This document shows positions 12,246-63,068 of a stretch of 64,000 nt of DNA, piece after piece; position 1 is the first letter of the stretch; each line of letters begins with the position of its first letter. Origin of the DNA: Oceanirhabdus seepicola (GTDB taxonomy: Bacteria > Bacillota > Clostridia > Clostridiales > Clostridiaceae); NCBI RefSeq assembly GCF_023684385.1, contig NZ_JAGSOJ010000004.1, positions 186,001 to 250,000 on the forward strand. Direction: 5' to 3'. The position numbers and the translations under genes were made by a program. The notes beneath the pieces were generated by a model. The model made no database searches. It was not told the origin of the DNA and worked only from the letters and a program-made list of their open reading frames with translations.

Positions 12246-12283
12246 GCTTATCCTCCACCTTAATAAATTTGTTCTCTTTATTT

Positions 12284-34314: not shown

Positions 34315-34444
34315 TAAAAAAGGCGCTTCGCGCTTCGCTAGGGAACCCTATGGTTCCCCTCGACGCAACTATCGTTGCTGAGCCCCCTCCTTAAACCGGC
34401 AGGGGAAATACTTCCCCTACAACCCCTTCATTTTTTTACTCTAT
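34315..34444 (-). repeat. Multi-hairpin dispersed element, copy B
   Basis: Inverted copy of 15121-15254, about 85-90% identical in the core. It has the same order of hairpins and closes with GCGC-GAA-GCGC followed by TTTTTTATTT. The closing stem differs from copy A in sequence but keeps pairing and the GAA loop. The gene-free stretch 34190-34611 otherwise holds only the gdhA terminator. Confidence 0.72.
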
Positions 34445-47487: not shown

Positions 47488-48834
47488 TTATTTTAAAGCT
47501 GATATCTTTTTAAGATTTCCTCTTATTTCATTTCTCAATTTTGTCATCTCTTTAAATTTATAGAAGAATAACATCTTCTGCTCTTTAACAGAATTACCTT
47601 TCGGCTTGTCCTGTATAACGAATTCAGTAAAGCTTTCAGCAATATCTTCTACGGGATTAGTTATTGCATAGTCTGAAACAAAATCATTTTTATATTTATC
47701 ATAGAAATTCATCATTGCATCTTCTGATTCTTGTGCTTTTTCCCATTCACTATTTATATTTTTCCAAAACTTATTATAATATCTATTTAAATAGGATTTC
47801 TCCTTTGTTGTCCCCTCATATATCGTAAATGTCTTACTTTTCTCATCTCTTTCTTTTTTCATTTGAGAATTATTTAAAGTTAATATATGAGCAAACTCAT
47901 GAATAATAGAATGATTTAAGTCAACATTATCTAGTTTGCCATCTTCTTTAAATGCATCTTTTTTATCTATAGCCATAGCCCATTTTTCACCTTTTTCATC
48001 TACTCCATAAACATAAGCTAATGTTCCATCTTTACCATCCGAGTTTATATTAAAGTTTGCAATTCTATTTATATAAGATTTAGGCACAAGTCTCTTTACT
48101 CTTTGCCAAATTAATTGATATTTTTCCATATCTTCTTGTGAAAGCTTTTCAGTTTTTTCTTCTTTATTAATTTCAATCTTACCATTTACAACATTAAATG
48201 CTGCAAATAACTCTTCATTTTCACCTTCAGGAGACATTGTTTCAGTATCATAACCTTTTTCACTTAGAATTTGTTCAATTTCATTCCAAAGCTTATCTGC
48301 CTCTTCATAGTTTTCTTCATTTTCAGCGTTAGTCCCTTGCTCATAAAGCTTTAATAATTCTTCATATAAATCCGAACCTATTTCATCCTTAATCCCTTGT
48401 AAAAATTCACCGAAATAGTCTTGTCCATCTTCTTCTCCATTTTGTAGTTGATCATTATCTGTTAATTGGATGCCTTTGCTTTCTGCAATATTCTCTAATA
48501 TACTTTCAAATTCACTCCATGCTTTTACAGATTTAAGTTCATATTCTGCAGCAGTCTCATAAAGTTTTTTAAGTTTTTCTATTTCCTCACTATCAAAATA
48601 TTTAATATCCTCCCCTATAAACTCATCAAATGATATACTTTCATAGTTCTCTTCAAAATTTGCTTCAGTATCACAATCTTGTTCAAGCTTATTATTTTTC
48701 TCTTTAGCTATATTATATACATTATTAATATATTGTTTATCACTTGTAATTTCTTTTGACTGTGTGGATATTCCTAATGTTCCCAAACCAATTCCTAATG
48801 TTAAAATTGCTGCTATAAATGCTTTATTTCTCAT
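47488..48834 (-). CDS. Secreted protein with an HExxH-like metallopeptidase motif
   Basis: 448 aa with a signal peptide (IAAILTLGIGLGTLG, cleavage near residue 26). The N-terminal half is acidic and helical, with many Glu-rich stretches. The C-terminal half has SIIHEFAHILTLN (HExxH) and a later EDIAESFTEFV that could hold the third ligand. The motif suggests a zinc peptidase, but I do not recognise a family, and the acidic half may be a spacer or propeptide. SD GAGGTG. Single gene with its own terminator. Confidence 0.65.
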   Translation of the reverse strand: MRNKAFIAAILTLGIGLGTLGISTQSKEITSDKQYINNVYNIAKEKNNKLEQDCDTEANFEENYESISFDEFIGEDIKYFDSEEIEKLKKLYETAAEYELKSVKAWSEFESILENIAESKGIQLTDNDQLQNGEEDGQDYFGEFLQGIKDEIGSDLYEELLKLYEQGTNAENEENYEEADKLWNEIEQILSEKGYDTETMSPEGENEELFAAFNVVNGKIEINKEEKTEKLSQEDMEKYQLIWQRVKRLVPKSYINRIANFNINSDGKDGTLAYVYGVDEKGEKWAMAIDKKDAFKEDGKLDNVDLNHSIIHEFAHILTLNNSQMKKERDEKSKTFTIYEGTTKEKSYLNRYYNKFWKNINSEWEKAQESEDAMMNFYDKYKNDFVSDYAITNPVEDIAESFTEFVIQDKPKGNSVKEQKMLFFYKFKEMTKLRNEIRGNLKKISALK

Positions 48835-49194: not shown

Positions 49195-49222
49195 AAAAAA
49201 AAGGCACTAGAGTGCCTTTTTT
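49195..49222. terminator. Bidirectional terminator at the end of the quinone operon
   Basis: GGCACT-AG-AGTGCC flanked by A8 on the left and T6 on the right, so it works in both directions: for the small ORF at 49045 and for the ten-gene minus-strand run ending at 49222. Confidence 0.92.
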
Positions 49223-50169
49223 CATTTAACTATCAGGTTTCCAACAACCATAGCAACTATCTGTACAACATTTATTATCATCAAATTCTTAACAGCTAAA
49301 GCGAATGTATCTTTTTTTGTTTGCTTTTCATAAAATAATTTAATATTCTTATTTACTAAAATAAATGTCAGTAGTGTTATTACACAGACAATAGGTACTA
49401 TCTTCAAAACAATCATAATAATTATATCAATATATACAATATAGTATAATACCTTATATAAGTTAAGAGCTTTATCTTTACCTATATATATAGGTAATGT
49501 ATAACGCTCATTTTCTTTATCATCCTCAATATCACAAATATTATTTGCAAGCATAATATTTGCAATACAATTCACTGTAGGTATAGCGAACATAAATATA
49601 TAAATTAATTCTATAAGATTTATATTGATGCTTAACATACTATTACTATAGGAAAAAAGAACTAAACTATTCCCAACATGTATATATATTGATAAGAATA
49701 CAATTATAAATCCCATTAATAGACCTGAGATAATCTCACCTAAAGGAGTTCTTGATATCGGTATAGGTCCAAAGGAATAACAAATGCCTCCTAGAAATGA
49801 TACCATTCCTAAAAGTAAAACTACAATATTTGTGTTTAAAAACAATAATGTTCCAAATATAGTTGCCGCTATCAAAAGGGACAGTATAACTCCAATAACA
49901 GTTCCTTCTTTTAAATTATCTTTAACAATGGCATTATGTGTTTCATAATTATATCCATGAGTTTTTTTAGCTCTCTTATAATCATAGTAATTATTGATAG
50001 CTGTTGTAGCCATATCAAATGTTATTAGTGACATAAACATAAGTATAAAATTCTTAAAATTAAATTGATTATAGTGATATAGCGCATAAATATTTCCTAG
50101 TAAAAATGGAATGCAACTTGCCAGCTTCGTCTGAATTTCTACTAATTTTAAAAAACTACTCAATGACAT
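49222..50169 (-). CDS. MenA-like prenyltransferase
   Basis: 315 aa membrane prenyltransferase of the UbiA superfamily with about nine hydrophobic segments. The Asp-rich motifs are AINNYYDYKRAKKTH (first) and NNICDIEDDKENERYTL (second), the pattern of 1,4-dihydroxy-2-naphthoate polyprenyltransferase, which prenylates with loss of CO2 to give demethylmenaquinone. In the Listeria flavin-based electron transfer locus an equivalent enzyme (DmkA) makes the required quinone. SD AAAGGA. It is the last gene of the operon. It is not closely similar to the other UbiA-family protein (55050), so the two likely use different substrates. Confidence 0.85.
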   Translation of the reverse strand: MSLSSFLKLVEIQTKLASCIPFLLGNIYALYHYNQFNFKNFILMFMSLITFDMATTAINNYYDYKRAKKTHGYNYETHNAIVKDNLKEGTVIGVILSLLIAATIFGTLLFLNTNIVVLLLGMVSFLGGICYSFGPIPISRTPLGEIISGLLMGFIIVFLSIYIHVGNSLVLFSYSNSMLSININLIELIYIFMFAIPTVNCIANIMLANNICDIEDDKENERYTLPIYIGKDKALNLYKVLYYIVYIDIIIMIVLKIVPIVCVITLLTFILVNKNIKLFYEKQTKKDTFALAVKNLMIINVVQIVAMVVGNLIVK

Positions 50170-50192
50170 TCCTTTTTTCCTCCATCTTTATA

Positions 50193-50888
50193 TTAATCTT
50201 CTGTTTTAAGTTTGTATTTGTTTTTAGGTCTACCAACTTTGCCATACTCCATCTCAACCTCAAGCTTTTTTTCTTTTTCTAAATAATCTAAATACCTTCT
50301 TGCAGTAATTCTAGAAACTCCAATATTCTCAGCGATTTGCTGGGCTGTAAAATTTTCATCACCCATATCATATATACCTTCTAATACCTTCTCATAAGTA
50401 CGCTGGTTAAATCCTTTCATATCACTAATATCATCTATCTGTTCTGACTCAAAATTCTTCTCTTTAAATATATATCTATCAATAGTCTCTTGCTCAATAT
50501 TCTCATTATCTTCAAAGCTGCACTTTCTATTTTTAAATTGAATAAGCGATTCCTTGAATCTTTTGAAAACAAAAGGCTTCACAAGATAGTCAACAACTCC
50601 ATATCTAAATGCTTCCTCAACAGTTTCGGTATTACGATCAGCTGTAATCAAAATAGCATCACATTTAATATTCTCTGAACGTACCCATCTTAATAAATCT
50701 GTTCCTTTCCCTTGTGGAAAGAAAATATCTAATAGTAATAAATCAGGTTTATATATTAATATTGCATCTTTTGCCTTCTCTATGGAATTTACAATCCCGC
50801 TTAATTCAAAGCCTTCTACTTTTTTCAAAAACCTCTCATTGATCATACTTACCATTGGGTCATCTTCAACTATAAGCACCTTAATCAT
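50193..50888 (-). CDS. CitB/DcuR-type response regulator
   Basis: 231 aa. Receiver domain (about 1-120) with VEDDPMVS, the phospho-Asp in LLLLDIFFPQG and Lys in YLVKPFVF. A C-terminal HTH (about 170-230) reads TAQQIAENIGVSRITARRYLDYLE followed by KLEVEMEYGKVGRPKNKY, typical of the DcuR/CitB/MalR group. It starts at the ATG at 50888 (AAAGGAG 8 nt upstream), 4 nt after the kinase stop. The pair is in the middle of the quinone operon and probably regulates it or the divergent apbE unit. Confidence 0.93.
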   Translation of the reverse strand: MIKVLIVEDDPMVSMINERFLKKVEGFELSGIVNSIEKAKDAILIYKPDLLLLDIFFPQGKGTDLLRWVRSENIKCDAILITADRNTETVEEAFRYGVVDYLVKPFVFKRFKESLIQFKNRKCSFEDNENIEQETIDRYIFKEKNFESEQIDDISDMKGFNQRTYEKVLEGIYDMGDENFTAQQIAENIGVSRITARRYLDYLEKEKKLEVEMEYGKVGRPKNKYKLKTED

Positions 50889-50892
50889 TAAA

Positions 50893-52464
50893 TTAACTCC
50901 TTTCCATAGGTATAAATATATCCCATACAGTTCCATTATCTTGGGAAATATCTATACTCCCTTCAGCATAATCTACTATCTGTTTTATAATATTTAGACC
51001 AAACCCCCTGCTTCCTGATTTAGTAGTAAACCCTCTTTCGAATATTTTATCTCTTATACCTTTAGAAATACCAGGACCATTATCCTTGACTCTTATGTGC
51101 AATCCCTCTTCATCAGAATTTAATTTCACAAATATTTTGCCATTCTCATACTTTACTAATTCATCTATTGAATTCTCAATTAAATTACCAATTATTGAAC
51201 AAATCTCATCTGCTGTTACACTATCTGGAATCTTTTCCATGTTAGAATTTGGATCAATCGCCATAGATATCTTAGCTTCTGTTGCCTTATTATATTTAGC
51301 AAGCAACAATCCCGCTATATGAACATTACTTATTTTCTTATTTAATATATTAGAAACATCTTGTCTTTCATGAGATATATCAGAGATATATTCAATAGCC
51401 TCATCGTATTCCTCAAGTTGAATAAGTCCTGAAATAGTGTGCAACTTATTCATAAACTCATGGTTTTGAGCTCTTAGAGCACAGGTCATTTTTCTTGCTC
51501 CAGTTAGTTCCTCTGCCATATGTTTAACTTCTGTTAAATCATTAAAACTTGAAACTACGCCTATTATCTCATCCTTATGGTTTGTGAGAATAGTATGACT
51601 AGACACAAGGGTTTTGTTATGTCCAACTTTTATTTCCTGATTATATATTGGAATCCTTTTTCTTAAAACCTCCACCATACTATCAGTATAATTTTTACTT
51701 AGTATGGAAATATCTTTCCCTAAATCATCATCATTAAGTGCTAGAATTTTCTTTGCAGCTTTGTTGATAAATATTATCTTTCCATCATTATCTATAGCTA
51801 AAATTCCATCTTTTAAACTCTGTAATACCAAGTTTCTTTGTCCAAGTAAAAGTGCGATTTCCTTTGGTTCTAATCCAAATATGGTCTTCTTTATTGAATT
51901 TGATAGTATTGCTGCACTTATTATTCCAATTATGATACCAACCACTATGGTTATCTTGAAAAAGAACATCTGAGTTCTCAGTTCCTGGTATACAGTATCT
52001 GTTAAAAGTCCTACAACAACAGCACCTACCTGCTCTCCCTCATAATTTATTGGTACATAAGCCCTTATTGCTGTAATCAATTTATTCCTATCTTTAGAAA
52101 CATAGGATTCGCCCTCTTTTAATACCCTTTCTTCTCCACCATCATTATATTTTTTACCAAGGGTATTCCCATATGGATATGAATACTTAATACCTTCCAT
52201 ATCCATGACTATGATATATTGAAATCTTGTTTTGTCACTAAAGTCATCTATTGTATTCTGAACAACCTCATAGTCATTAGTGGTGGCTAGAGTTTTTTCA
52301 ATTATATCCATTGAGGAAATGGTCACTGCTAAATCCATTGCATTATTCCCCATCTGCTCTTCCAAAGACACTTGCATATGATGATAAGTAACACATCCAA
52401 TGGTTCCAATCACCAAAATCATTATAGCGCTAAAAAATATCATCAATCTATTTTGTAATTTCAA
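50893..52464 (-). CDS. CitA/DcuS-type sensor histidine kinase
   Basis: 523 aa. Two membrane segments (about 8-28 and 168-190) flank an extracytoplasmic PAS-like domain (about 35-165, with FQYIIVMDMEG), followed by a cytosolic PAS (about 205-320) and a HisKA_7/SPOB-like kinase with RAQNHEFMNKLHTISGL (His near 343) and HATPase ENSIDELVKYE, GFGLNIIKQIV. CitA/DcuS kinases bind carboxylates such as citrate or fumarate through the external PAS. The start is TTG within TTGA, overlapping the stop of the FMN-binding protein gene by 4 nt, so translation is coupled. The carboxylate sensed is unknown. Confidence 0.92.
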   Translation of the reverse strand: MKLQNRLMIFFSAIMILVIGTIGCVTYHHMQVSLEEQMGNNAMDLAVTISSMDIIEKTLATTNDYEVVQNTIDDFSDKTRFQYIIVMDMEGIKYSYPYGNTLGKKYNDGGEERVLKEGESYVSKDRNKLITAIRAYVPINYEGEQVGAVVVGLLTDTVYQELRTQMFFFKITIVVGIIIGIISAAILSNSIKKTIFGLEPKEIALLLGQRNLVLQSLKDGILAIDNDGKIIFINKAAKKILALNDDDLGKDISILSKNYTDSMVEVLRKRIPIYNQEIKVGHNKTLVSSHTILTNHKDEIIGVVSSFNDLTEVKHMAEELTGARKMTCALRAQNHEFMNKLHTISGLIQLEEYDEAIEYISDISHERQDVSNILNKKISNVHIAGLLLAKYNKATEAKISMAIDPNSNMEKIPDSVTADEICSIIGNLIENSIDELVKYENGKIFVKLNSDEEGLHIRVKDNGPGISKGIRDKIFERGFTTKSGSRGFGLNIIKQIVDYAEGSIDISQDNGTVWDIFIPMERS

Positions 52465-52820
52465 TAATCATCCCCCTCAATCATAGCATTACTAAGTGCA
52501 TCTTCTATAGCCTGAATAAGTCCCTTACTGGTATATGTTGCTCCAGTTACCACATCAACCTTGGTGCTATTAGCTTTTATTACTTCTTTAGGAATCTCTT
52601 CATACACAATTTTACTTAACAAAGGAATCTCTTGATCTTCTATAATCTCAATAGCTTTGATTTCGTATTCATCTGTTGTAATTTCCACCCTAATTTCATC
52701 AATATGTCCTTGCCCAGTCCCCTCATATTTACCTTCTTTATAAATTATCTTTTTATCCCCACAAGAAGTCAATTGAATGGCTATTCCCATAGTCAAACAT
52801 AACGTTAAAAGTTTTTTCAC
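52461..52820 (-). CDS. FMN-binding domain lipoprotein
   Basis: 119 aa extracellular flavoprotein. A signal peptide ends in the lipobox-like QLTSC (Cys near residue 20). The mature part is one FMN_bind domain with VDVVTGATYTSKG near residue 88, the [ST]GAT motif in which ApbE attaches FMN to the Thr. It has GTG as start with AGGAGGGGG 9 nt upstream. Similar single-domain proteins (PplA type) and NqrC/RnfG-like domains pass electrons outside the membrane. The needed ApbE is at 61031 and NADH dehydrogenase at 58594, so it is likely the acceptor of quinol electrons at the surface. Confidence 0.9.
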   Translation of the reverse strand: MKKLLTLCLTMGIAIQLTSCGDKKIIYKEGKYEGTGQGHIDEIRVEITTDEYEIKAIEIIEDQEIPLLSKIVYEEIPKEVIKANSTKVDVVTGATYTSKGLIQAIEDALSNAMIEGDDY

Positions 52821-52835
52821 CTAACTCCCCCTCCT

Positions 52836-53579
52836 CTATCTCCAAGGAAAACAAATATTTTCAATCACATCAATAGTTATGAATATTACTAATCCTATAA
52901 AACTTAAAATCAAGATACCAGAATACATCTGAATATAATTAACCCTCATCCATGAGTCCATAATAAAATATCCCATACCATATTCCGTTCCAAAGTTTTC
53001 AGTAAAGAATAAAACTGATATTGAAGTTCCTATTCCAATCCTTAATGAAGTTAAAATCCCTGGAACTATTCCTGGAAGAATGATTTCTCTTATTATTTCA
53101 ACATTATTAGCTCCCACAGAATACATGGGATAAAAAACTTCTTCAGGAATATTCTTAACCTCATCTCTTATACTCACTACAATCTGAAAAAAAGTAATTA
53201 AGAAAATCATAAATATCTTAGTTAAATCCCCTAATCCAAACATAAGCATAACTATTGGAAGTAAAGCTATTTTTGGAATTGGATAATTAAAATATATAAT
53301 AGGTGAAAGAATTGAATCAATATTTTTGAAATACCCCATTAATACTCCAATTAACGTTCCTAGTGTTACTGATAAACTCAATCCTATTATAATTCTTCTC
53401 AAACTATGTAAAGCATGAATTGCTATATGGCTCCGAAAAGTTGTGAAAATATTTATCATTATCTTTGTTGGTGGTGGGAGTATAGGACTTTTCATAATCA
53501 TTCCAACTATTTGCCATATAGCAAAAATCAAAAGAAGTGCTAAAATAAAATTAGTTATTTTATTTTCTCTAATTCTCAT
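52836..53579 (-). CDS. ABC importer permease (SsuC/TauC type)
   Basis: 247 aa with six membrane segments. The EAA-type coupling loop is near VGANNVEIIREIILPGIVPGILTSLRIG. The family imports sulfonates, nitrate, thiamine precursors, aromatic acids and similar small organic anions. Its ATG overlaps the ATPase stop by 4 nt. Its partner binding protein is probably the lipoprotein encoded at 62118, of the matching NMT1/SsuA type, on the other side of the locus. The substrate is discussed in the findings. Confidence 0.9.
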   Translation of the reverse strand: MRIRENKITNFILALLLIFAIWQIVGMIMKSPILPPPTKIMINIFTTFRSHIAIHALHSLRRIIIGLSLSVTLGTLIGVLMGYFKNIDSILSPIIYFNYPIPKIALLPIVMLMFGLGDLTKIFMIFLITFFQIVVSIRDEVKNIPEEVFYPMYSVGANNVEIIREIILPGIVPGILTSLRIGIGTSISVLFFTENFGTEYGMGYFIMDSWMRVNYIQMYSGILILSFIGLVIFITIDVIENICFPWR

Positions 53580-54328
53580 CCTATTCTCTCTCCTTTGAGA
53601 GTATTTTTTAGTCTAATATTCATATCAATAAATTCCTTATTAAATTCAACATTACTTTTCCCAAATAGAGGATTATCTATAACCTCAACAACCTTTCCAG
53701 GGGTTGATGAAAGCACCACTATTTTCTGCCCTAGATAAATGGCTTCTCTTATATCATGAGTTACTAATAAGGTTGTAACCTTGTATTCCTTCCACACCTG
53801 TAAAAATAGTTCTTGTACTTCTTCCCTAATCATAGCATCTAACGAGGAAAACGGCTCATCCATTAAGAGCAAGTTAGGTTTCAACAATAAAGCCCTTGCA
53901 ATTGAAACTCTCTGCATCTGTCCCCCACTCAGTTGAGTAGGATACCTTTTCACTAACTTATCAATATCTAATTCCTTTAATATTCTCCTATAGAAATCTT
54001 TATCGATACTTTTTTTACCATCTTTAATCTTAGCCGATAAAAATACATTTTCTTCTACACTCTTCCATTTAACCAATCCGTAATTCTGAGGTATGAAGCC
54101 AATTCTATGACTCTTAGGATTTACTTCATTTCCATCTATTAGAACCTGTCCTTCATCCCCTTTAAGAATTCCTGCTAATACCTTTAACAAAGTGGATTTA
54201 CCACATCCTGATGCTCCAATAACAACACATATTTCGCCTTCTTCCACTGACAAATCCACAGTTTCTATAGCCTTAATATGTTTGTCCTTGTTTTTATAAG
54301 AAACACTTAAATTATTAACTTCGATCAT
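53576..54328 (-). CDS. ABC importer ATPase (SsuB/TauB type)
   Basis: 250 aa. Walker A GASGCGKST, Q-loop IPQNYGL, signature LSGGQMQRVSIARAL, Walker B LLLMDEPF and the H-loop VTHDI. It energises the permease encoded 4 nt overlapping downstream. SD GGTGATAAG. The length and the SxxDAMIREEVQE segment are typical of the taurine/sulfonate/nitrate importer subfamily. It lies 18 nt after ubiX, within the quinone operon, which is unusual for this transporter group. Confidence 0.93.
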   Translation of the reverse strand: MIEVNNLSVSYKNKDKHIKAIETVDLSVEEGEICVVIGASGCGKSTLLKVLAGILKGDEGQVLIDGNEVNPKSHRIGFIPQNYGLVKWKSVEENVFLSAKIKDGKKSIDKDFYRRILKELDIDKLVKRYPTQLSGGQMQRVSIARALLLKPNLLLMDEPFSSLDAMIREEVQELFLQVWKEYKVTTLLVTHDIREAIYLGQKIVVLSSTPGKVVEVIDNPLFGKSNVEFNKEFIDMNIRLKNTLKGERIG

Positions 54329-54346
54329 TAGCTTATCACCTATTTT

Positions 54347-54928
54347 TTATTTATTTCCGCCCCATTCATCATATAAATCACTCTCAATATTTAAACTTGA
54401 AAGAATTCTTCCAACTGTTATGTTAACAAGCTCCTCAATAGTTTTAGGTTTCTGATAAAAAGCAGGCATAGGAGGTAACATAGTAACATTCATATCACTC
54501 AAGAAAAGCATATTCTTAAGGTGAATTGAATTAAATGGTGTTTCCCTAGGAACAAGAATTAAATTTCTCTTCTCCTTTATCATAACATCAGCAGCCCTTA
54601 TCAATAAGTTATCCGTAACTCCACAACTGATTTTTGAAAGAGTTCCCATAGAGCATGGAACAATTACCATTCCATCAGTTCTAAATGATCCACTAGCTAT
54701 TGAGGAGAACATATCATCAATATCACATACTATTAAATTGCCTTTATACTCTTTTACATTATATATCCACTCTTCAAAATTAACTTCAATTTCATATTCT
54801 AAAACTTTTCTTCCGTTATCTGTAATAACCAAGTGAACTTCATTTCCTTGCTTTAACAATTCTTCTACAAGTCTAACTCCGTAAATGCTCCCACTTGCTC
54901 CTGTAATTCCTATAATATATTTTTTCAA
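54347..54928 (-). CDS. ubiX: UbiX-type flavin prenyltransferase
   Basis: Makes prenylated FMN, the cofactor of UbiD decarboxylases. 193 aa from the TTG at 54928; the frame continues to a GTG at 54937, but GAGGTG lies there and fits the TTG better. Marks: GITGASGSIYGVRL (FMN phosphate loop), VIVPCSMGTLSKISCG, and LVPRETPFNSIHLKNML near residue 125. It is two genes from its partner ubiD, with ubiA and a 95-bp palindrome between. In the futalosine pathway MqnM has this activity; aerobic ubiquinone genes are not otherwise present. Confidence 0.95.
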   Translation of the reverse strand: MKKYIIGITGASGSIYGVRLVEELLKQGNEVHLVITDNGRKVLEYEIEVNFEEWIYNVKEYKGNLIVCDIDDMFSSIASGSFRTDGMVIVPCSMGTLSKISCGVTDNLLIRAADVMIKEKRNLILVPRETPFNSIHLKNMLFLSDMNVTMLPPMPAFYQKPKTIEELVNITVGRILSSLNIESDLYDEWGGNK

Positions 54929-54958
54929 AAATTTCACCTCATAATTATGTCAAAATAA

Positions 54959-55053
54959 ATAGAATGTAATTTTGTAACCATCTTACATATCAAACAGCCT
55001 TGAACCATTGGCTGTTTGATATGAATATGATAACAAAATTTAATTCATTCTAT
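54959..55053. repeat. 95-bp palindromic element, copy 2
   Basis: Terminal repeats ATAGAATG/CATTCTAT, inner arms ATATCAAACAGCC/GGCTGTTTGATAT. It fills the spacer between ubiA and ubiX. Its CATTCTAT end contains the TAG stop codon of ubiA. Same family as 37163-37256. Confidence 0.85.
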
Positions 55054-55904
55054 ATAAAAACATCTATCATTGTAAAAATAAATATCAAAACACTCACAAC
55101 CTGATTGATATTGTAAGATGCAATCTTCATCTTCTTTTCATTTGATGGAGAAACCATATAATGCTCCAATACTAATAACCCTGCACTGATTATAATTCCT
55201 ACTAGATATATCCACCCTAAACCCATGATAAAATACAAACTAATCAGTAATAAAATCATGATAAAATGAAACCCTCTAGATATGTACAAAGCTCCTTTTA
55301 ATCCAAATCTTGCTGGTATTGAGAATAATCCTGACTCTCTATCAAACTGAATATCTTGAGTTCCATAGATTATATCAAACCCAGCAACCCATAACATCAC
55401 AACTGCACCTAAAATAAGTGGTGCTAATGCAAACTTTCCTGTTACTGCAAGCCAAGCACCAACAGGTGCTCCCCCACAGGCAATTCCAAGCACAACATGA
55501 CATGCCCAAGTAAACCTTTTAGTGTAGGAGTAAATTATAAATAGAAAAAGCGCTACTGGTGATAATAAAAAACATAGAGTATTTAACTTGTATGCTGCTA
55601 AAATAAAAATTGAAAAACACAATACTACTATTCCCCATACTTCGTATTCCTTTACAATACCCTTTGGCAGATGCCTATTAGCTGTCCTTGGGTTTTTCTT
55701 ATCAATATCTTTATCCACTATTCTATTTAGAGCATTAGCTCCATTTCTTGCTCCAACTAAAGCAATTAATATCCAAAATACAGTATGAAATGACGGTAAT
55801 CCTCCTGCTGCCCATATCATTCCAATTAATGCGAAAGGCAGTGAAAATAAAGTATGGGAGAACATAACTACTTCTCCGTATTTTTTAATCTTCTCTAATA
55901 CCAT
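55050..55904 (-). CDS. UbiA-type 4-hydroxybenzoate/1,4-dihydroxy-6-naphthoate prenyltransferase
   Basis: 284 aa membrane enzyme of about eight segments. The first motif is NRIVDKDIDKKNPRTANRHLPKG and the second GFDIIYGTQDIQFDRESGLFSIPARFG, diagnostic for the UbiA/MqnP group. These enzymes prenylate an aromatic carboxylic acid without removing the carboxyl group, so a UbiD-type decarboxylase must follow; both UbiD and UbiX are adjacent. The ATG at 55904 has AGAGGTGG 7 nt upstream and overlaps the ubiD 3' end by 20 nt, a coupled pair. In the futalosine route the equivalents are MqnP, MqnL and MqnM. The C-terminus ends in a TAG supplied by the 95-bp repeat. Confidence 0.93.
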   Translation of the reverse strand: MVLEKIKKYGEVVMFSHTLFSLPFALIGMIWAAGGLPSFHTVFWILIALVGARNGANALNRIVDKDIDKKNPRTANRHLPKGIVKEYEVWGIVVLCFSIFILAAYKLNTLCFLLSPVALFLFIIYSYTKRFTWACHVVLGIACGGAPVGAWLAVTGKFALAPLILGAVVMLWVAGFDIIYGTQDIQFDRESGLFSIPARFGLKGALYISRGFHFIMILLLISLYFIMGLGWIYLVGIIISAGLLVLEHYMVSPSNEKKMKIASYNINQVVSVLIFIFTMIDVFI

Positions 55905-57330
55905 ATTCTTTCCACCTCTTATCAACTAAATCTTTAATCTCTTCACTCATTTCTATATCATCTGGCCACTCTCTTGTATGTCCTTCTGACGGCCATTTTT
56001 TTGTAGCATCAATTCCTAGTCTATGTCCATAATATGCTGTGTTTGATGCATGATCTAACGCATCCAAAGGACCTTCAGAGATTACTAAATCTCTTTTTGC
56101 ATCTATATTATTAAATATCTTCCATGCTACAGTTGATAAATCCTGTGGTTTTATATTCTCGTCCACAACTATTATCATCTTAGTGTACATCATTTGTCCC
56201 ATACCCCAAAGTGCGTTCATGATCTTTTGAGCATGCTTTGGATAAGCTTTTTTTATAGAAACAATTACACAATTATGAAATACCCCTTCTAGTGGGAAAT
56301 TCATATCCACTATTTCAGGACATTGAACCTTAATCAATGGTAGGAATACTCTTTCAGTTACTTTTCCTAAATAGCAATCCTCCATTGGTGGTTTTCCTAC
56401 AATCGTTGTTGGATATATTGGATTCTTCTTTCTAGTGATTTTTTCTATATGAAAAACTGGATACATATCAGCAAGGGAATAATAACCAGTATGATCACCA
56501 AAAGGACCTTCTAATCTCATTTCATCAAGATCAACATATCCTTCAAGTATGAATTCTGAATTGGCAGGAACATAAATATCATTTGTAACACACTTAACCA
56601 TATCCACAGGTGACTTTCTTAGAAAACCAGCAAAGATCATCTCATCTATCATCTTTGGAAGTGGCGCTGTGGCAGAATAAATAGTAGCAGGATCACATCC
56701 TAATGCTACTGAAACAGGCATTCTCTTTCCTGATTTTCTATACTTTTCATAGATTTCTCTACCATCTTTATGTAAATGCCAATGCATCCCTGTTGTTTTC
56801 TCATCGTATACCTGAAGTCTATACATTCCAACATTTTGCTGCCCTGTTTCTGGATCCTTTGTTATCACAAGTGGAAGAGTAATATATTTTCCACCATCCT
56901 CTGGCCAGCATTGCAAAATTGGAAGTTTAGTTAAATCCGGTTCCTCTATTACTTCTTGACAAGCTCCCTTCTTCACCTTTTTAGGGAAAACCCTTGCCAA
57001 CCAAGCCAATTTAGGAATAGATTTAACCTTATTTATCAACGTAGCATAATTACTAATATCCATGAAATCTAATATAGTATCAGCAATCTCATCAAGTTCT
57101 TCTACCTCAAGTCCAAGATTCATTCTCTCATATGTTCCTAATGAATTAATTAATACTGGATAATCAGAACCTTTTACATTCTTAAACAACAATGCCTTAC
57201 CATACTTCTTAGATACCCTATCAGTTATTTCCGTAATCTCAAGATTGCTATCCACTTCTACTTCAATCTCATGTAGTAGATTTTTTTTTCTTAAAACCTC
57301 TATGAAGTCATGCATATCTTTATACGCCAT
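55885..57330 (-). CDS. ubiD: UbiD-family prenyl-FMN decarboxylase
   Basis: 481 aa, the usual length. The prFMN/metal region includes QNVGMYRLQVYDEKTTGMHWHLHKDG, and the catalytic Glu region is MRLEGPFGDHTGYYS. It removes the carboxyl group of a prenylated aromatic acid, and needs prFMN from UbiX. Its position between polyprenyl synthase and UbiA, with overlap, points to a quinone precursor (MqnL/UbiD activity) rather than a free phenolic acid. SD GAGGGAT. No other UbiD-pathway genes such as hydroxylases are present. Confidence 0.95.
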   Translation of the reverse strand: MAYKDMHDFIEVLRKKNLLHEIEVEVDSNLEITEITDRVSKKYGKALLFKNVKGSDYPVLINSLGTYERMNLGLEVEELDEIADTILDFMDISNYATLINKVKSIPKLAWLARVFPKKVKKGACQEVIEEPDLTKLPILQCWPEDGGKYITLPLVITKDPETGQQNVGMYRLQVYDEKTTGMHWHLHKDGREIYEKYRKSGKRMPVSVALGCDPATIYSATAPLPKMIDEMIFAGFLRKSPVDMVKCVTNDIYVPANSEFILEGYVDLDEMRLEGPFGDHTGYYSLADMYPVFHIEKITRKKNPIYPTTIVGKPPMEDCYLGKVTERVFLPLIKVQCPEIVDMNFPLEGVFHNCVIVSIKKAYPKHAQKIMNALWGMGQMMYTKMIIVVDENIKPQDLSTVAWKIFNNIDAKRDLVISEGPLDALDHASNTAYYGHRLGIDATKKWPSEGHTREWPDDIEMSEEIKDLVDKRWKEYGIRED

Positions 57331-57352
57331 TATTCAATCCCTCTCTCTCAGT

Positions 57353-58324
57353 CTAAAAGTTTCTATTCAATAATTTATCTGTTATATCTCTAATTATTTT
57401 TTTGCTCTCACACTCTGGTAATTTATCTATACTATCAAATGCTTTTTTTGTATATTTATCTGCTAATTCTCTAGCTCTCTCCATACCTTTATATTCATCA
57501 ACCAACAAAACTAGTTCTTTAACATCCGCTTCACTTAATGAAGAGTTATCCAAAATATCCCCAATTTTATTTTCCTTATCCTCACCTATTGCGTATAAAA
57601 GAGGTAATGTATAGTATCCACTTATCAAATCTCGCTGTGCGCTCTTACCCAATTTACTGGCATTACCACTATAATCAAGTATGTCATCCATTATCTGAAA
57701 TGCCATACCAATATGATATCCAATTTTGCCAAGTAATTTTGATATTTTTTCATCACATCCAGCTTCATTTGCTCCAGTATAAAGACTGATAGCAAACAAT
57801 GCAGCAGTCTTTCCTGATATTATTTTTAAATATTTCCTTACGCTTGTATTCTTTGAATACCTAAGATTATATTGCACTATCTCACCCATACAGATCTTAG
57901 ATATTGCCTTTGATATATTTTTCAAATTTTCTGGAGAATAATTGTATTCGGAAAGCATTATAAAACACTGGCAGAACAAAAAGTCCCCAATATAAACTGC
58001 ATATTCTTTTCCATATTTAGATTGTATTGTTTCTACCCCTCTTCTAAGTTTAGATTCATCTACAATATCATCATGAACCAAGGTTGCTGTGTGCATCATC
58101 TCAATCGTAGCTGCTAGATTCTGCATCTTTTCAGGGTCATACTCTCCAAATTTTCCTGCTAATAATAAAAATGCCGGTCTCAACATTTTTCCACCTGCAT
58201 CAACTAAAGGAGATATTGCTTTAGTAAATTCGCTCTCCCTAGATTTTATATTTACTTTCATAATATTAGTTACATTTTCTAATTCTCGTTCTATATGAGG
58301 GTATTCACTCCAAAACCTATTCAT
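57353..58324 (-). CDS. Trans-polyprenyl diphosphate synthase
   Basis: 323 aa all-helical synthase that extends farnesyl diphosphate to the quinone side chain. The two Asp-rich motifs are VHDDIVDES (DDxxD, near residue 80) and FQIMDDILDYSG. The Arg after the first motif (LRRGVETIQSKYG) matches the substrate-binding pattern. Chain length cannot be read reliably by eye. SD AAGGTGATG. First gene of the operon proper, followed 22 nt later by ubiD. In Listeria the equivalent enzyme of the electron transfer locus is DmkB. Confidence 0.94.
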   Translation of the reverse strand: MNRFWSEYPHIERELENVTNIMKVNIKSRESEFTKAISPLVDAGGKMLRPAFLLLAGKFGEYDPEKMQNLAATIEMMHTATLVHDDIVDESKLRRGVETIQSKYGKEYAVYIGDFLFCQCFIMLSEYNYSPENLKNISKAISKICMGEIVQYNLRYSKNTSVRKYLKIISGKTAALFAISLYTGANEAGCDEKISKLLGKIGYHIGMAFQIMDDILDYSGNASKLGKSAQRDLISGYYTLPLLYAIGEDKENKIGDILDNSSLSEADVKELVLLVDEYKGMERARELADKYTKKAFDSIDKLPECESKKIIRDITDKLLNRNF

Positions 58325-58531
58325 TTCATCACCTTGTTAAATTATTTTATATTGCATATCTTCTAATAATCGATAACAACTCTCAATATAATTCTAATAA
58401 ATATCTATTCAAAAGAAAAGAGGTATTTAGAAGGTACAACAACATAATTTGCCATACTTATATTAAATCATATTCTAAAAACTAATCAACCAAATAATTC
58501 AAATTATTACAAATTAACTATTGAAACGCAT

Positions 58532-58565
58532 CAAATGTCCTTTTAATTTTTTAAAAGGACATTTG
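58532..58565 (-). terminator. Hairpin downstream of the NADH dehydrogenase gene
   Basis: The 15-bp stem CAAATGTCCTTTTAA/TTAAAAGGACATTTG has only a weak T-tract on either side. It lies 28 nt beyond the ndh stop and may terminate or reduce read-through into the polyprenyl synthase operon. Confidence 0.5.
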
Positions 58566-58593
58566 GGAAATTTTCTATTCTACTTTATTCAGG

Positions 58594-60498
58594 TTAATCT
58601 ACATATAAATATGATTTTCTAACGAACCCAATGTTCTTCCACCATTTTTTCAGAACAGGCAATACATAATAATCTAGTCCAAATGTACTTCCTGAACCAC
58701 CTATAAGTGCGATTGCAGCACCCATATACCATAACATCTCAGTTGGTGCCATTCCAGATGACCATATCATCATACCCATTGCCAATGAAATTATTGAAGC
58801 AAGTGCAGTAAATAATCCTGCAATCAATAGTAATCCTACTACGATTTCACCAATTACCATCCCAGTTTGGAATAGTTTTGCCATGAAAGTATACCCACCT
58901 TCTCCATTATAGAAGAATGCATCCATAGACCATTTAACTATATTTTCAATAAATCCAGGTACTGGTAACGCTGCGCCATACTGAGAAACAGCTTCCGTTG
59001 CTCCTCCTGCTACTGCAGTAGATGCTGAAGTTGTTGCCTCCACTACTTTTTCTGTTACTTTTGCTGCCGCTGTTGCAGCTGTTGTTCCATCAACCGCTGG
59101 TGGTGCAGGTATTAAGAATATCTTTGAAGGATCATGAATTATTTTTTCTAATTTTTCAATTCCCTCAGCTAACCATTTGTATCCAACAAAAATTCTCAAT
59201 GGTACTAACCAGAAGTTTGGAGATGCCTTTGAAAAATGTCCTCCAACAAAACTTCTTTTATCTTTAATATGGAAGAATTCATGCATAATATATGACCAAC
59301 ACTTATTAAATCCAGCAACTTGAACGAAGTACACTAAATTAATAAAATGCTTAACAAATGCTGCGAAGAAACTAGGTAGTCCAAAGAATTTCCCTGGTTT
59401 ACCTAAATGAGCTACTGCATACCTTCCCCCTACACATACCATTGCCCCATGGAACTCTGGCTTGTAAGATTTCTTTTCTCCACCTTTTATATCACTGCAA
59501 ATATTATGCGCAATTATTGGTGCAGAACTCTCAGCATTCTCAACCATTTGTGGTACCGGTCTTTCTTCTCCTTCTGGAATATAGAAAATATTATCTCCAA
59601 CAACATAAACATTTTCATATTCTAAAGCCTGCAGCTTATCATTTGTAACTATTCTCTTTCTACCCTTTTGTTCTATATCCATCTTACCAACAATATCCGA
59701 ACCCTCAATACCAGCTGCCCATATAACGGTATTAGTTTTTATTGTACCCTTGTCTCCTAATGTAACAGAATTCTTAGAAACTTCTGTGATTCCTGCATTG
59801 GTAACTACTTGTACATCTAGCTTTTTAAGTCTTTTCTCAACTTTATTAATTATCTTATCCGGGAAAATCGGTAATATTTTCGGCATTGCATCTACTACGT
59901 ATAACTTGACCTCTTCTCTATCTACAGCGAAATCTTTACATAGTCTATCCTTCCACTCACCTAATTCACCAATCATCTCGATTCCAGTGAACCCACCACC
60001 TACTACAACGAAAGTCAACATTTTCTGTCTCTTCTCTTTATTAGGCTCTTTCACAGCTTCTCTAAACATGTGAAGAATGTGTTCTTTTAACTGAACTGCG
60101 TCCTCATATGACCATAGCTTACGAGTGTATTCCTTTGCTCCAGGTATACCAAAGTAAGTTGGTTGGCACCCTGTACCGATTACTAAATAATCATACTTAT
60201 ATGAATTCCCCTCAGATTTCAACACCTTGTTATCAAAATCTAAGTCAGTAATCTCATCCAGAACAACGTCCACATTTCTCTTTGCAAATATTTTTTTTAA
60301 ATCAATTTTAATAGAGTCTTCTGATACTCTATTTGCCGCAACCTCGTGAAGCTCAGTAAGCAATGTGTGATATGGTTTCTTGTCTATAAGCGTGATTTCA
60401 ACATCTTTTTCTTTCTTAAGCTTTTTGGCAAGTTTTTTAGCAGTTAATACACCACCATATCCACCGCCTAACACTACTATTTTCTTCTTCTGATTCAT
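58594..60498 (-). CDS. Type II NADH dehydrogenase with DoxX-like membrane C-terminus
   Basis: 634 aa, from the ATG at 60498 (GGGGGG 6 nt upstream). The N-terminal ~400 residues are a Ndh-2 flavoprotein: VLGGGYGGVLTA (FAD), VVGGGFTGIEMIGEL (NADH), and VYVVGDN. A low-complexity Ala/Thr/Val linker (about 475-515) leads to a membrane region of four hydrophobic segments of DoxX type. It passes electrons from NADH to a membrane quinone without pumping. Ndh-2 of the Listeria EET locus has the same added membrane domain. It is separated from the quinone operon by 270 bp and a hairpin. Confidence 0.93.
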   Translation of the reverse strand: MNQKKKIVVLGGGYGGVLTAKKLAKKLKKEKDVEITLIDKKPYHTLLTELHEVAANRVSEDSIKIDLKKIFAKRNVDVVLDEITDLDFDNKVLKSEGNSYKYDYLVIGTGCQPTYFGIPGAKEYTRKLWSYEDAVQLKEHILHMFREAVKEPNKEKRQKMLTFVVVGGGFTGIEMIGELGEWKDRLCKDFAVDREEVKLYVVDAMPKILPIFPDKIINKVEKRLKKLDVQVVTNAGITEVSKNSVTLGDKGTIKTNTVIWAAGIEGSDIVGKMDIEQKGRKRIVTNDKLQALEYENVYVVGDNIFYIPEGEERPVPQMVENAESSAPIIAHNICSDIKGGEKKSYKPEFHGAMVCVGGRYAVAHLGKPGKFFGLPSFFAAFVKHFINLVYFVQVAGFNKCWSYIMHEFFHIKDKRSFVGGHFSKASPNFWLVPLRIFVGYKWLAEGIEKLEKIIHDPSKIFLIPAPPAVDGTTAATAAAKVTEKVVEATTSASTAVAGGATEAVSQYGAALPVPGFIENIVKWSMDAFFYNGEGGYTFMAKLFQTGMVIGEIVVGLLLIAGLFTALASIISLAMGMMIWSSGMAPTEMLWYMGAAIALIGGSGSTFGLDYYVLPVLKKWWKNIGFVRKSYLYVD

Positions 60499-60878
60499 AT
60501 TTGTCCCCCCATCTGGTAACAATTGTTTCTCTAATTTTTACATATCATCATTTCCATTACAATTACTATTAATTTCATCCACTCTTATTCAATTTTCACA
60601 TTTCTTTACCTTAGTTAAAAGTTTATCATACCCTACTCATATGTCCATATAAGCCACTCTTTTGGTCATTATTAATATATTTTGTTAATTTAGTTCACAG
60701 AAAAACTGCACTTCGTCCATGGATTTCCTAAGAATTAAAAAACTCATTTACTTTAAAAGTAATCAGTGTTATAATCACTTCATTATTACATTTCATTTTT
60801 TACCTCAAGGGAATTTCTTTTTTTTGCAATTTTGTCCAATTCTATGATTCATTATAATTTTCTATCTAAAAATTTATC
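60499..60878. other. Divergent regulatory spacer, 380 bp without a gene
   Basis: Between the ndh and apbE genes. It is AT-rich, with the short palindrome ATTACTTTTAAAGTAAA near 60750. I do not find an unambiguous sigma-A promoter. A TATAAT at 60771-60776 could be a plus-strand -10 for apbE. The rest of the spacer is the structured element at 60879-60986. Confidence 0.4.
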
Positions 60879-60986
60879 CTATAAATATCGCAGCTCAATA
60901 ATTTATTTATACAAGTCCATAACTCATTGAATCTTTGAGATTTTGGAACATGTACAAATAAAATTTCGCGGTAAGATATCTATATA
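60879..60986 (-). ncRNA. Structured element, copy B (candidate cis-RNA)
   Basis: Aligns to 3568-3674 over ~107 nt. Outer stem TATAGATATC/GATATTTATA and inner TTATTTGTACATGT/ACTTGTATAAATAA, both containing G-U pairs when read on the minus strand (A-C mismatches on the plus strand). The inner stem CTCA/TGAG has replaced CACG/CGTG. Conserved unpaired parts are ACCG-GAA, CAAAATC and TTCAA. Reading the minus strand it would be part of a ~490-nt leader for the ndh gene; apbE starts just 45 nt away in the other direction. Confidence 0.5.
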
Positions 60987-61030
60987 TAAAAAATATATTT
61001 CTGTTTATCAGATTTGAAAGGAGAGTCCCT

Positions 61031-62101
61031 ATGTTAAAGCACTCTAAAAAAATTATTTTTCTATTATTTATAATATTTTTTGTTGTGATTTTTAAGTTTA
61101 GTGTGTTAGATTCTTCACAAGAAGAAGCCAAAGAATCATTAAATTTACCAATATCAAAAACAGATTTTTTTATGGGAACTGTAATCGATATCAACATATA
61201 TGAACAGGTATCTGATGATGTGTTCGAAGATGTTTTTGACATACTTAATTCCATTGAAAGTAACATGAGTTTAAATCTCGATGATAGTGAGATTTCTAAA
61301 ATCAATGCTAATTCAGGTAGTGCCGAAGTAAAAGTTTCTCCTGAAACATTTTACGTAATAAATAGGGGTAAGTACTACTCTTCTTTATCTCAAGGTTTAT
61401 TTGATATCAGTATTGGTCCTTTAGTTAAATTGTGGAGCATAGGTTCTGAAAATGCTCGTGTTCCAACTCAAGATGAAATAGATGCCACTATAAAAAAAAT
61501 TAATTATAAAAATGTATTATTAGATGAGTCAACTTTCAGCGTAGAACTTAATGATTATAATATGATGCTTGATTTAGGAGCCATTGCTAAGGGTTATGCA
61601 GCAGATGAAATTGTAAAATATCTAAAATCTAAAAATATTAATAGCGCTATCATCAGTCTTGGTGGAAATATTTGTGCCATGGGTGTAAAACCTGACTCTA
61701 CTCCTTGGAGAATAGGAATACAAAATCCATTTTCTGACCGTGGAGCGCATCTAGGGGTAATTAAGGTGGAAAACAAATCAGTAGTAACTTCAGGAATATA
61801 TGAAAGATACATAGAACAAGATGGAGTTAGATATCATCATATATTGAATCCTTTCACAGGGTATCCTATGGAAAACTCATTAGCAAGTGTATCAATTATC
61901 GCGGATAACTCCATTGATGCAGATGGCCTTTCAACTTCAGTATTCTCTATGGATGTGGAGGAAGGAAGTAAATTAATTGAAACCTTAGAAGGTGTTGATG
62001 CAATATTTGTAACTAGGAACAATGAGATTTATATAACATCTGGTCTTGAAGGAAATTTCAAGATTACTGATGAGAACTTCGAATTAAAACATAAAAACTA
62101 G
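61031..62101 (+). CDS. apbE: ApbE-type FAD:protein FMN transferase
   Basis: Attaches FMN covalently to a Thr of FMN-binding proteins outside the membrane, using FAD. 356 aa: an N-terminal membrane segment (about 8-27, no lipobox Cys), then the ApbE domain with FMGTVIDI, MLDLGAIAKGYAADEI, SLGGNICAMGVKP and YHHILNPFTGYPMENS, ending with DGLSTSVFSMD. The FMN-binding lipoprotein at 52461 has the acceptor motif and is the natural target. SD AAAGGAGA. It is divergent from ndh and followed 16 nt later by the substrate-binding protein gene, so the two form one operon. Confidence 0.95.
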   Translation: MLKHSKKIIFLLFIIFFVVIFKFSVLDSSQEEAKESLNLPISKTDFFMGTVIDINIYEQVSDDVFEDVFDILNSIESNMSLNLDDSEISKINANSGSAEVKVSPETFYVINRGKYYSSLSQGLFDISIGPLVKLWSIGSENARVPTQDEIDATIKKINYKNVLLDESTFSVELNDYNMMLDLGAIAKGYAADEIVKYLKSKNINSAIISLGGNICAMGVKPDSTPWRIGIQNPFSDRGAHLGVIKVENKSVVTSGIYERYIEQDGVRYHHILNPFTGYPMENSLASVSIIADNSIDADGLSTSVFSMDVEEGSKLIETLEGVDAIFVTRNNEIYITSGLEGNFKITDENFELKHKN

Positions 62102-62117
62102 CGGGAGCGTGTACACA

Positions 62118-63068
62118 ATGAAAAAAAAGAGTTTATTAATAGCTTTAATATTAATCATAAGTATTAGTCTTTTAGGCTGCACAAGCCAAACTAATAAGGA
62201 GGATTCTTCAGCCCCTCTTCAGCCATTAACTATTGGTGTAATGCCAGATTTAGATTCTATTCCATTCATTATTGCAGAACATAATGGATACTTTAAAGAA
62301 GAAGGTATTGATGTTACAATAGAACATTTTAAAAGTGCAATGGACAGAGATACTGCACTGCAAACAAAAAAGCTTGATGGTGCAATATCAGATATGCTTG
62401 CTGTAGTTTTCTTCAATGATAATGATTTTGACGTGAAAATCACATCTAAAACAGATGGTAGCTTTAAATTAATCGCAGGAAAAGATTCAGGAATATCTAG
62501 CATCGATCAAGTTGATGGAAAATCTATAGGAATATCAAAAAATACTATTATCGAATACTTAACTGATAGAATCATGGAAATTTCAAACATTGATGTTAAT
62601 TCACCAGAAAAAGTTGCAATTCCTAAGATTCCAACTAGATTAGAGATGCTTAACAATGGGAAATTAGACATGGCTACATTACCAGAACCTCTTGCTAGTC
62701 TTGCAGTAACAGCAGGCGGATCTATTTTAAACAGTTCTGATAAGTTAGGTGTGAATCCTGGAATAATGTTATTCACTAGTGATGCAATAGATTCAAAACC
62801 TAAAGAAATTCAAGCACTTTATAGAGCTTATAACAAAGCAGTTACCTTTTTAAAAGAAGAGAAGATGGAGAGCTATATTGATTTCGTTATTGAAGAAGCT
62901 GGTTTTCCTAAAAACATAAAGGATACATTAACTCTTCCAGATTACACTAAAGCTTCTATGCCTTCAGAAAAAGAATTAGAAGAAGTGTTAACTTGGCTTA
63001 AATCAAAAGATTTAACTAGCAATGATTATACTTTAAAAGAATTATCAACTGATGAGTTTGTAAAATAA
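62118..63068 (+). CDS. ABC transporter substrate-binding lipoprotein (NMT1/SsuA type)
   Basis: 316 aa from the ATG at 62118 (GGGAG 10 nt upstream; a GTG at 62109 is too close). Signal with lipobox SLLGC, then a two-lobed type II binding protein: TIGVMPDLDSIPFIIAEHNGYFKEEGIDV opens it, followed by GAISDMLAVVF and GKSIGISKNTIIEYLTDRI. The family binds sulfonates, pyrimidine thiamine precursors and other small anions. It is the logical partner of the permease and ATPase at 52836-54328, which otherwise have no binding protein in the window. The ligand is unknown; the quinone context suggests an aromatic acid. Confidence 0.9.
   Translation: MKKKSLLIALILIISISLLGCTSQTNKEDSSAPLQPLTIGVMPDLDSIPFIIAEHNGYFKEEGIDVTIEHFKSAMDRDTALQTKKLDGAISDMLAVVFFNDNDFDVKITSKTDGSFKLIAGKDSGISSIDQVDGKSIGISKNTIIEYLTDRIMEISNIDVNSPEKVAIPKIPTRLEMLNNGKLDMATLPEPLASLAVTAGGSILNSSDKLGVNPGIMLFTSDAIDSKPKEIQALYRAYNKAVTFLKEEKMESYIDFVIEEAGFPKNIKDTLTLPDYTKASMPSEKELEEVLTWLKSKDLTSNDYTLKELSTDEFVK

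Follow-up and report, generated by a model that had tools for sequence, protein, structure and literature searches.

A putative quinone-precursor salvage operon adjoining flavin-based electron-export genes in Oceanirhabdus seepicola

Introduction

In the flavin-based extracellular electron transfer (FLEET) chain known from Listeria, electrons pass from Ndh2 through demethylmenaquinone to EetA and EetB and on to the flavinylated lipoprotein PplA (PMC10608574, where a FLEET genome lacking DmkA is described as well; papers are cited here by PubMed Central accession). The last steps of the futalosine pathway of menaquinone synthesis are carried out by MqnP, MqnL and MqnM, homologues of UbiA, UbiD and UbiX, an assignment given in 2016 (PMC4746308). 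Here we describe a locus in which parts of both systems stand side by side with an ATP-binding cassette (ABC) importer. It lies in a 64,000-nucleotide stretch of the genome of the anaerobe Oceanirhabdus seepicola (assembly GCF_023684385.1, contig NZ_JAGSOJ010000004.1, positions 186,001 to 250,000), referred to below as the window. An earlier reading made from the sequence of the window (the original prediction) held that the importer brings in an aromatic acid, such as a naphthoate shed by neighbouring bacteria, for conversion to a quinone that carries electrons from reduced nicotinamide adenine dinucleotide (NADH) to a flavoprotein.

Of the steps of quinone synthesis many bacteria possess just the final ones, and it is supposed that they draw on precursors from their neighbours. 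The available text of PMC4746308 leaves transporters for these precursors still to be predicted; in 2017 transporters for menaquinone or for 1,4-dihydroxy-2-naphthoate (DHNA) were called undescribed (PMC5738691), and PMC10746273 expects quinone uptake routes that are as yet unidentified. A parallel for such sharing is Lactiplantibacillus plantarum, in which exogenous DHNA taken from other bacteria feeds the FLEET chain (PMC10746273, PMC8837199) by an uptake route that is likewise called unidentified; the window, in contrast, has a dedicated ABC cassette together with UbiA, UbiD and UbiX.

Results and Discussion

Organization of the locus and the proposed pathway

A check of open reading frames and profile searches of the window proteins found every gene named in the original prediction at the place, on the strand and in the family given for it (Table 1). 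The minus strand carries, in order, genes for an NDH-2-type NADH dehydrogenase, a polyprenyl synthase, UbiD, UbiA, UbiX, the importer ATPase and permease, a flavin mononucleotide (FMN)-binding lipoprotein, a sensor kinase, a response regulator and MenA; the genes for the flavin transferase ApbE and for a substrate-binding protein (SBP) of the NMT1/SsuA type are divergent on the plus strand, with 7 nt between them. The near-continuous order had been described correctly, but the spacing differs from the overlaps of 4 to 20 nt that had been claimed: 4 nt are shared at the ATPase/permease and FMN protein/kinase junctions, two further junctions overlap by about 40 nt when the longest start is assumed, and gaps of 112 nt and 269 nt separate UbiX from UbiA and NDH-2 from the polyprenyl synthase. 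The locus is real and not an artefact, and each of its enzyme classes is already known; the nearest permease record, 87% identical, is that of Oceanirhabdus sp. W0125-5, and another genome of the genus (G013) has the same locus.

We read this arrangement as an operon for the salvage of a quinone precursor, coupled with a flavin-based chain that exports electrons, and give this reading, which draws on sequence comparison, a probability of roughly 60%. The binding lipoprotein would catch an aromatic acid, for which 1,4-dihydroxy-6-naphthoate from bacteria that use the futalosine pathway is the likeliest candidate, and the permease and ATPase would carry the acid into the cell. UbiA would then attach to it the side chain that the polyprenyl synthase supplies, and UbiD, using prenyl-FMN made by UbiX, would strip the carboxyl group to give demethylmenaquinone. 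This quinone would be reduced by NDH-2 with NADH and would pass its electrons to the ApbE-flavinylated lipoprotein and so to the outside, here perhaps by way of EetA and EetB encoded elsewhere. In O. seepicola itself quinone could also come from the cell's own men pathway through the MenA copy of the locus, with salvage as an addition.

The locus shares with the Listeria FLEET locus the combination of NDH-2, polyprenyl synthase, MenA/DmkA-type enzyme, ApbE and FMN lipoprotein. It differs in that EetA and EetB are encoded elsewhere in the genome, that the FMN lipoprotein has a single domain, and that UbiD, UbiA, UbiX, an ABC importer and a two-component system are added; relatives of the locus at L039, L041, L059, L089 and L107 (L numbers denote fetched loci, G numbers genomes) do encode EetA and EetB within the stretch fetched. 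With the futalosine tail it shares the three homologues, UbiD exceeding the cut-off of the menaquinone decarboxylase (MqnL) model, but UbiA falls below the MqnP cut-offs, an importer lies within the operon, and the ring-forming part of the pathway is absent from the family sample described below. The importer shares its SBP fold and its ATPase and permease families with NMT1/SsuA-type importers and with PqqT, which binds pyrroloquinoline quinone (PQQ); the SBP is 12-18% identical to its solved relatives and the operon partners are others.

The importer is linked to UbiA, UbiD and UbiX

The permease was sought across 146 genomes of the family (Clostridiaceae), and 40 permease loci were fetched and compared. 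UbiA lies near the permease at 28 of these, making 29 genomes with the window, and most of the loci also hold UbiD, UbiX, the SBP and the ATPase, often with no flavin gene nearby. An independent search found MqnL over its cut-off in 22 of the 146 genomes, belonging to 12 genera, and all 22 genes lie within 3.6 kb of a permease match. A scan of a collection of species genomes, from which the best 80 of 445 relatives were kept, extended the comparison. When eight repeated loci are dropped, permease and UbiA are neighbours at 41 distinct loci in addition to that of the window, some in stretches that end at contig ends, and are accompanied by the ATPase at 41, UbiX at 37, UbiD at 36 and the SBP at 35. 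This recurrence goes beyond chance, and sequence together with genome comparison shows that the ABC importer and UbiA/UbiD/UbiX form one conserved module; the original prediction had proposed their co-occurrence as a check.

UbiD is broken or missing at L033 and L035 of the family sample, and likewise at L047, with the remaining operon kept, as if the pathway were decaying in some species. We also note a second UbiD of about 610 residues, scoring about 340-350 bits to TIGR03701, in the cassette genomes G097, G134, G143, G084 and G089; at L052 a UbiD of this length adjoins a cassette in which UbiA is present and MqnL is not.

The proposed tie between the quinone module and genes for NADH-to-flavin electron export also holds at many loci. 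Seven markers (NDH2, EetA, EetB, FMN protein, PplA-like protein, ApbE and reductase) were sought within the stretch fetched, and at least two of them adjoin the module at 19 of the 41 linked loci, with one marker at a single locus and none at 21. Among loci with the permease but no UbiA, at least two markers were found at 1 of 69 (L111), a set in which five (L046, L054, L091, L092 and L134) probably belong with the linked loci and were truncated by contig ends or missed by thresholds. At L039, L041, L059, L089 and L107 the genes for NDH2, EetA, EetB, the synthase, UbiD and UbiA are grouped with those of the importer, L059 being without UbiX and L039, L041 and L107 without an SBP that passes the count. 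Because 21 of the linked loci lack any electron-export marker, the importer follows the prenyltransferase and not the flavin genes. This bears on the idea that the importer supplies flavin to ApbE and the FMN-binding protein, which the 7-nt spacing of the ApbE and SBP genes in the window might suggest; with both ApbE and the FMN protein among the markers missing from those 21 loci, and with no FMN riboswitch at gathering score in either the window or the 14 loci sampled for it, we find flavin import scarcely credible.

The association extends through the phylum. Among 398 Bacillota genomes drawn regardless of the importer, and with a permease cut of 200 bits that was set after seeing the data in a gap between 224.3 and 164.4 bits, MqnL was found in 106 and the permease in 109; 72 have both, 34 MqnL only, 37 the permease only and 255 neither. 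The permease is thus present in 72 of 106 genomes with MqnL and in 37 of 292 without (odds ratio 14.6; Fisher p 6e-26, a value that ignores kinship), and in 28 of the 72 the two genes are less than 10 kb apart.

These figures also bear on whether the importer carries an unrelated nutrient such as a sulfonate, a thiamine precursor or nitrate and is simply co-regulated with the quinone genes. The best-fitting named models are indeed taurine and sulfonate types, the fold neighbours of the SBP bind ligands of this kind, and the importer occurs in the 37 genomes without MqnL over the cut-off and beside unrelated genes in Negativicutes. All of these models, however, remain below their curated cut-offs (TauB 200 bits against 357, TauC 105 against 342, SsuC 76 against 347, and SsuA as in Table 1), and neither a thiamine pyrophosphate (TPP) nor an FMN riboswitch reached its gathering score in the window or the 14 sampled loci; TPP riboswitches are the customary, though not a necessary, control of thiamine-precursor importers. 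Set against an operon kept in 12 genera, the placing of every MqnL gene of the family beside an importer and the phylum odds ratio, an unrelated nutrient appears unlikely. As a separate observation, the cassette stands beside varied unrelated genes at L138, L125, L147 and other Negativicutes loci, though MqnC is present in the genome.

Ring-forming pathways in importer genomes

The ring markers sought were MqnC and MenD in the family sample and in the genomes of fetched loci. MqnC exceeds its cut-off in none of the 146 family genomes and in 2 of 14 control genomes; MenD was found in 7 of the 146, two of which (G000 and G013) are among the 22 MqnL carriers, and 20 of the 22 have neither marker over the cut-off. 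Beyond the family, the genomes of 50 of the 80 fetched loci were tested, hand-picked with named or longer contigs favoured and all found through the importer; MqnL exceeds its cut-off in 46 of them, MqnC in 24 and MenD in 1. The 20 of these genomes with an operon-linked locus include none with MqnC and one with MenD, so that 19 have neither. In most linked-operon carriers in which both markers were sought, salvage would thus be the only recognised route to the quinone. Thermoanaerobacterium butyriciformans and Clostridium tagluense are examples of cultured linked carriers that have neither marker.

Another explanation is that the cell itself builds the ring with enzymes of an unrecognised kind and UbiD, UbiA and UbiX complete it, the importer feeding in an earlier precursor or something else. 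The importer is kept together with MqnC in many carriers, as this would allow, but such a pathway would have to exist in all 19 linked-locus genomes without MqnC and MenD over the cut-off, and we regard it as very unlikely.

In the phylum sample MqnC was sought in 80 of the 106 MqnL genomes, namely the 72 with the importer and 8 of the 34 without. It is absent from 38 of the 72 importer genomes against 1 of the 8 others, the second number being small; it was found in 25 of the 44 genomes in which MqnL and the permease are not adjacent (one match below the cut-off) and in 7 of the 8 tested genomes without the importer. In genomes without the ring pathway the importer's presence accords with salvage; in genomes that have both, the importer may be a supplement or have some other use.

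A number of observations weigh against salvage as the general function. MqnC occurs in 34 of the 72 genomes with importer and MqnL (33 over the cut-off), including 9 of the 28 in which the two genes are adjacent, eight of these nine in one genus; among the 30 genomes of fetched loci that are unlinked, chiefly Negativicutes and Syntrophomonas, 26 have MqnC, 24 over the cut-off and two as split or cut genes below it. The importer is found without MqnL over the cut-off in 37 of 109 genomes, some of which hold a UbiD of about 590 residues just below that cut-off, and 34 of 106 MqnL genomes have no importer. The Fisher test, as noted, takes no account of kinship. At single loci, the permease of G128 is broken by stops, and L041 has no SBP gene within the fetched stretch. 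In the phylum sample MqnC was the ring marker covered, and MenG, MqnA, MqnB and MqnD were surveyed in the O. seepicola genome only. The window UbiA scores 232-309 bits with three MqnP models, all below their cut-offs (best 309 against 430), and the ligands known for fold relatives of the SBP extend to sulfonates, taurine, nitrate, bicarbonate and thiamine precursors. Finally, O. seepicola has a men operon and needs no salvage.

The men pathway and a second MenA in Oceanirhabdus

This last point goes against the original prediction, which had found no gene for ring synthesis, EetA or EetB and had proposed that the quinone precursor is imported. The absence holds for the region but not for the genome. 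A men operon complete for menF, D, H, B, E, C, A and G lies on the same contig, some 110 kb beyond the locus (L074, C4:356000-375900), in the order ndh2, polyprenyl synthase, menF, menD, menH, menB, menE, menC, menA, menG, tatC; seven of the eight men genes exceed their curated cut-offs (MenD at 462.6 bits), MenA has 217 bits against 277, and the DHNA-CoA thioesterase was outside the search. This operon opens with its own second NDH-2 and a short polyprenyl synthase (271 residues) and closes with tatC. Because G013 also carries MenD, 162 kb from its permease, contamination is an unlikely source of the gene. No complete futalosine pathway was found in O. seepicola, in which the best MqnC match has 38.9 bits against a cut-off of 428; a PF02621 (MqnA/D) match of 27.3 bits, barely above the Pfam threshold of 26, proved to be an ABC binding lipoprotein beside a permease and was set aside. 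Two pairs of EetA (NusG_II) and EetB (PF07456) genes also lie elsewhere in the genome, and after one of them comes a candidate flavinylated extracellular reductase that combines FMN_bind and FAD_binding_2 domains (L075:8907-11858, C2). With the men operon and these two pairs outside the locus, the organism has both its ring pathway and its EetA/EetB at other sites. The original prediction had said that it would fall if a complete ring pathway were found elsewhere together with a binding protein specific for an unrelated ligand: the former is there, since the complete men operon lies on the same contig, and the latter was not shown.

The MenA of the locus is probably part of a different branch. 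Among the fetched loci this type of MenA gene is restricted to two of the genus Oceanirhabdus, and the two genomes are the same two MqnL carriers of the family sample (G000 and G013) that have MenD. MenD also occurs in a third genome with the cassette, G129, whose UbiD is broken and whose cassette has no MenA of this type beside it. Because it is confined to genomes with MenD, the window-type MenA more likely uses home-made DHNA than the imported acid, and we read the locus as combining two branches that converge on demethylmenaquinone, one starting from the cell's own DHNA and the other from the salvaged acid.

The ligand of the binding protein and of the sensor

An AlphaFold2 model of the SBP is confident (mean predicted local distance difference test, pLDDT, 91.6), and its fold neighbours in the PDB are SsuA, TauA, CmpA, Thi5, PqqT with PQQ, and DszB, with MqnD lower down (Z 19.0, 251 residues, 3.8 A). 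Solved proteins of this fold include a PQQ binder and several enzymes, such as MqnD, whose substrates are aromatic acids. Similarity of fold does not by itself give the ligand, and a naphthoate is the putative one.

Loops expected to line the pocket, selected from general knowledge of the fold, are near-identical in UbiA-linked SBPs (40 rows, 36 without repeats) and unlinked SBPs (50 rows, including two repeats of linked loci, L082 and L084) and are changed in a third group (5 rows) encoded beside MenA. In that group, at L056, L060, L061, L063 and L069, a related cassette adjoins a different MenA-family prenyltransferase, assigned by Pfam for L056 and by similarity for the other four, and UbiD, UbiA and UbiX were not seen at these five loci. 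It is as if the MenA-linked SBPs bind a related but different acid, and this sister cassette is a candidate DHNA importer. Cobalamin and lysine riboswitches occur in the L056 stretch (12119-12306 and 516-693), not ahead of the cassette.

The importer of the window might itself carry another prenylatable aromatic acid, such as DHNA, 4-hydroxybenzoate or a relative, and give the usual quinone from another precursor or some other prenylated phenol. The substrate class of UbiA was judged from profile scores, which assign it just to the broad TIGR01475 subfamily, and the MenA-type genes beside the sister cassette would use DHNA. MenA-type enzymes, however, work without UbiD, and the UbiD of the window exceeds the MqnL equivalog cut-off (Table 1); the pocket loops of the MenA-linked group differ, and a benzenoid quinone would require ring hydroxylases, for which no search was made. 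We consider another acid somewhat unlikely, and continue to favour 1,4-dihydroxy-6-naphthoate.

Sensors of citrate and fumarate carry the motif RxSHP where the kinase of the locus and its relatives have KYSYP (all 23 aligned rows, or 16 once repeats are dropped). Because KYSYP replaces RxSHP, a ligand other than citrate or fumarate is suggested. Every one of the 23 aligned FMN proteins, likewise 16 once repeats are dropped, carries [TAS]GA[TS], which comes near the [S/T]GA[S/T]-like motif given for flavinylation in PMC11334425.

Features of the window

The features of the locus are collected in Table 1. Sites with a stem and T tail like the one after MenA number 9 in the region against 4.8 in shuffles. 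Elsewhere in the window we note a secreted protein (47488-48834, minus strand) with a possible HEFAH zinc-protease motif and a weak Peptidase_M10 match only; a sensor kinase with a family-3 solute-binding domain and a sigma-54 response regulator (43903-47278, minus strand) near transporter and amino-acid genes; and two copies of the Clostridiales-2 small RNA (Rfam RF02937) at 15132-15212 (plus strand) and 34353-34434 (minus strand). A U32 protein at the window edge was considered as a UbiU-like partner in anaerobic hydroxylation and rejected, the tRNA hydroxylase TrhP being its best match (137 bits) ahead of UbiU (120 bits), both below cut-off.

Table 1. Features of the predicted salvage and electron-export locus, in window coordinates.
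Feature	Coordinates	Strand	Supporting match
Substrate-binding lipoprotein, NMT1/SsuA type, predicted to capture an aromatic acid	62109..63068	+	PF09084 63 bits; SsuA_fam 90 bits, cut-off 163.5 not reached
ABC importer permease	52836..53579	-	PF00528 66 bits
ABC importer ATPase, taurine/sulfonate type	53576..54328	-	PF00005 120 bits
UbiX/MqnM-type flavin prenyltransferase (prenyl-FMN for UbiD)	54347..54937	-	TIGR00421 221 bits, cut-off 108.9
UbiA/MqnP-type polyprenyltransferase	55050..55925	-	TIGR01475 313 bits, cut-off 180.8
UbiD/MqnL-type decarboxylase	55885..57330	-	TIGR03701 (menaquinone decarboxylase) 658.6 bits, cut-off 495.9
Polyprenyl diphosphate synthase, side chain, DmkB-like role	57353..58324	-	PF00348 229 bits; HepT model 273 bits, below cut-off
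NDH-2-type NADH dehydrogenase, membrane C-terminus	58594..60522	-	PF07992 154 bits; DoxD 22.5 bits, slightly below cut-off
Single-domain FMN-binding lipoprotein, 119 residues, predicted flavinylation target	52461..52820	-	PF04205 49 bits
ApbE flavin transferase	61031..62101	+	PF02424 322 bits
CitA/DcuS-type sensor kinase, altered sensor motif	50893..52464	-	PF17203; DcuS/MalK family 426 bits, below cut-off 520
DcuR-type response regulator	50193..50936	-	PF00072, HTH_64
MenA/DmkA-type DHNA polyprenyltransferase, second copy of the genome	49222..50169	-	NF004752 379.7 bits, cut-off 289
Terminator-like stem 3' of MenA	49196..49223	-	12-pair stem and T tail

Conclusions

The original prediction is partly supported: comparison across genomes strengthens the idea of salvage, though two of its premises fail for the genome in which it was made. 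Its statement that no described system unites all of these parts agrees with the open-access literature searched. We found no paper in the available text of the open-licence PubMed Central literature that describes the cassette as a quinone-precursor importer, and the portions of PMC8238504, PMC11334425, PMC12702654 and PMC10608574 at hand mention no such importer; the union of a dedicated importer with MqnP/MqnL/MqnM-type enzymes, and its coupling to electron export, appears to be undescribed there.

We put at even odds the broader proposal that the cassette is the first recognisable menaquinone-precursor importer, spread across anaerobic Bacillota, with the UbiA-linked form taking 1,4-dihydroxy-6-naphthoate and the sister group beside MenA taking DHNA. 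The operon offers a concrete transporter candidate, a genomic marker of quinone dependence, and a link between the sharing of precursors and flavin-based electron export. If the proposal is true, quinone cross-feeding would be a genome-encoded trait, and shared quinones would be wired into the export of electrons.

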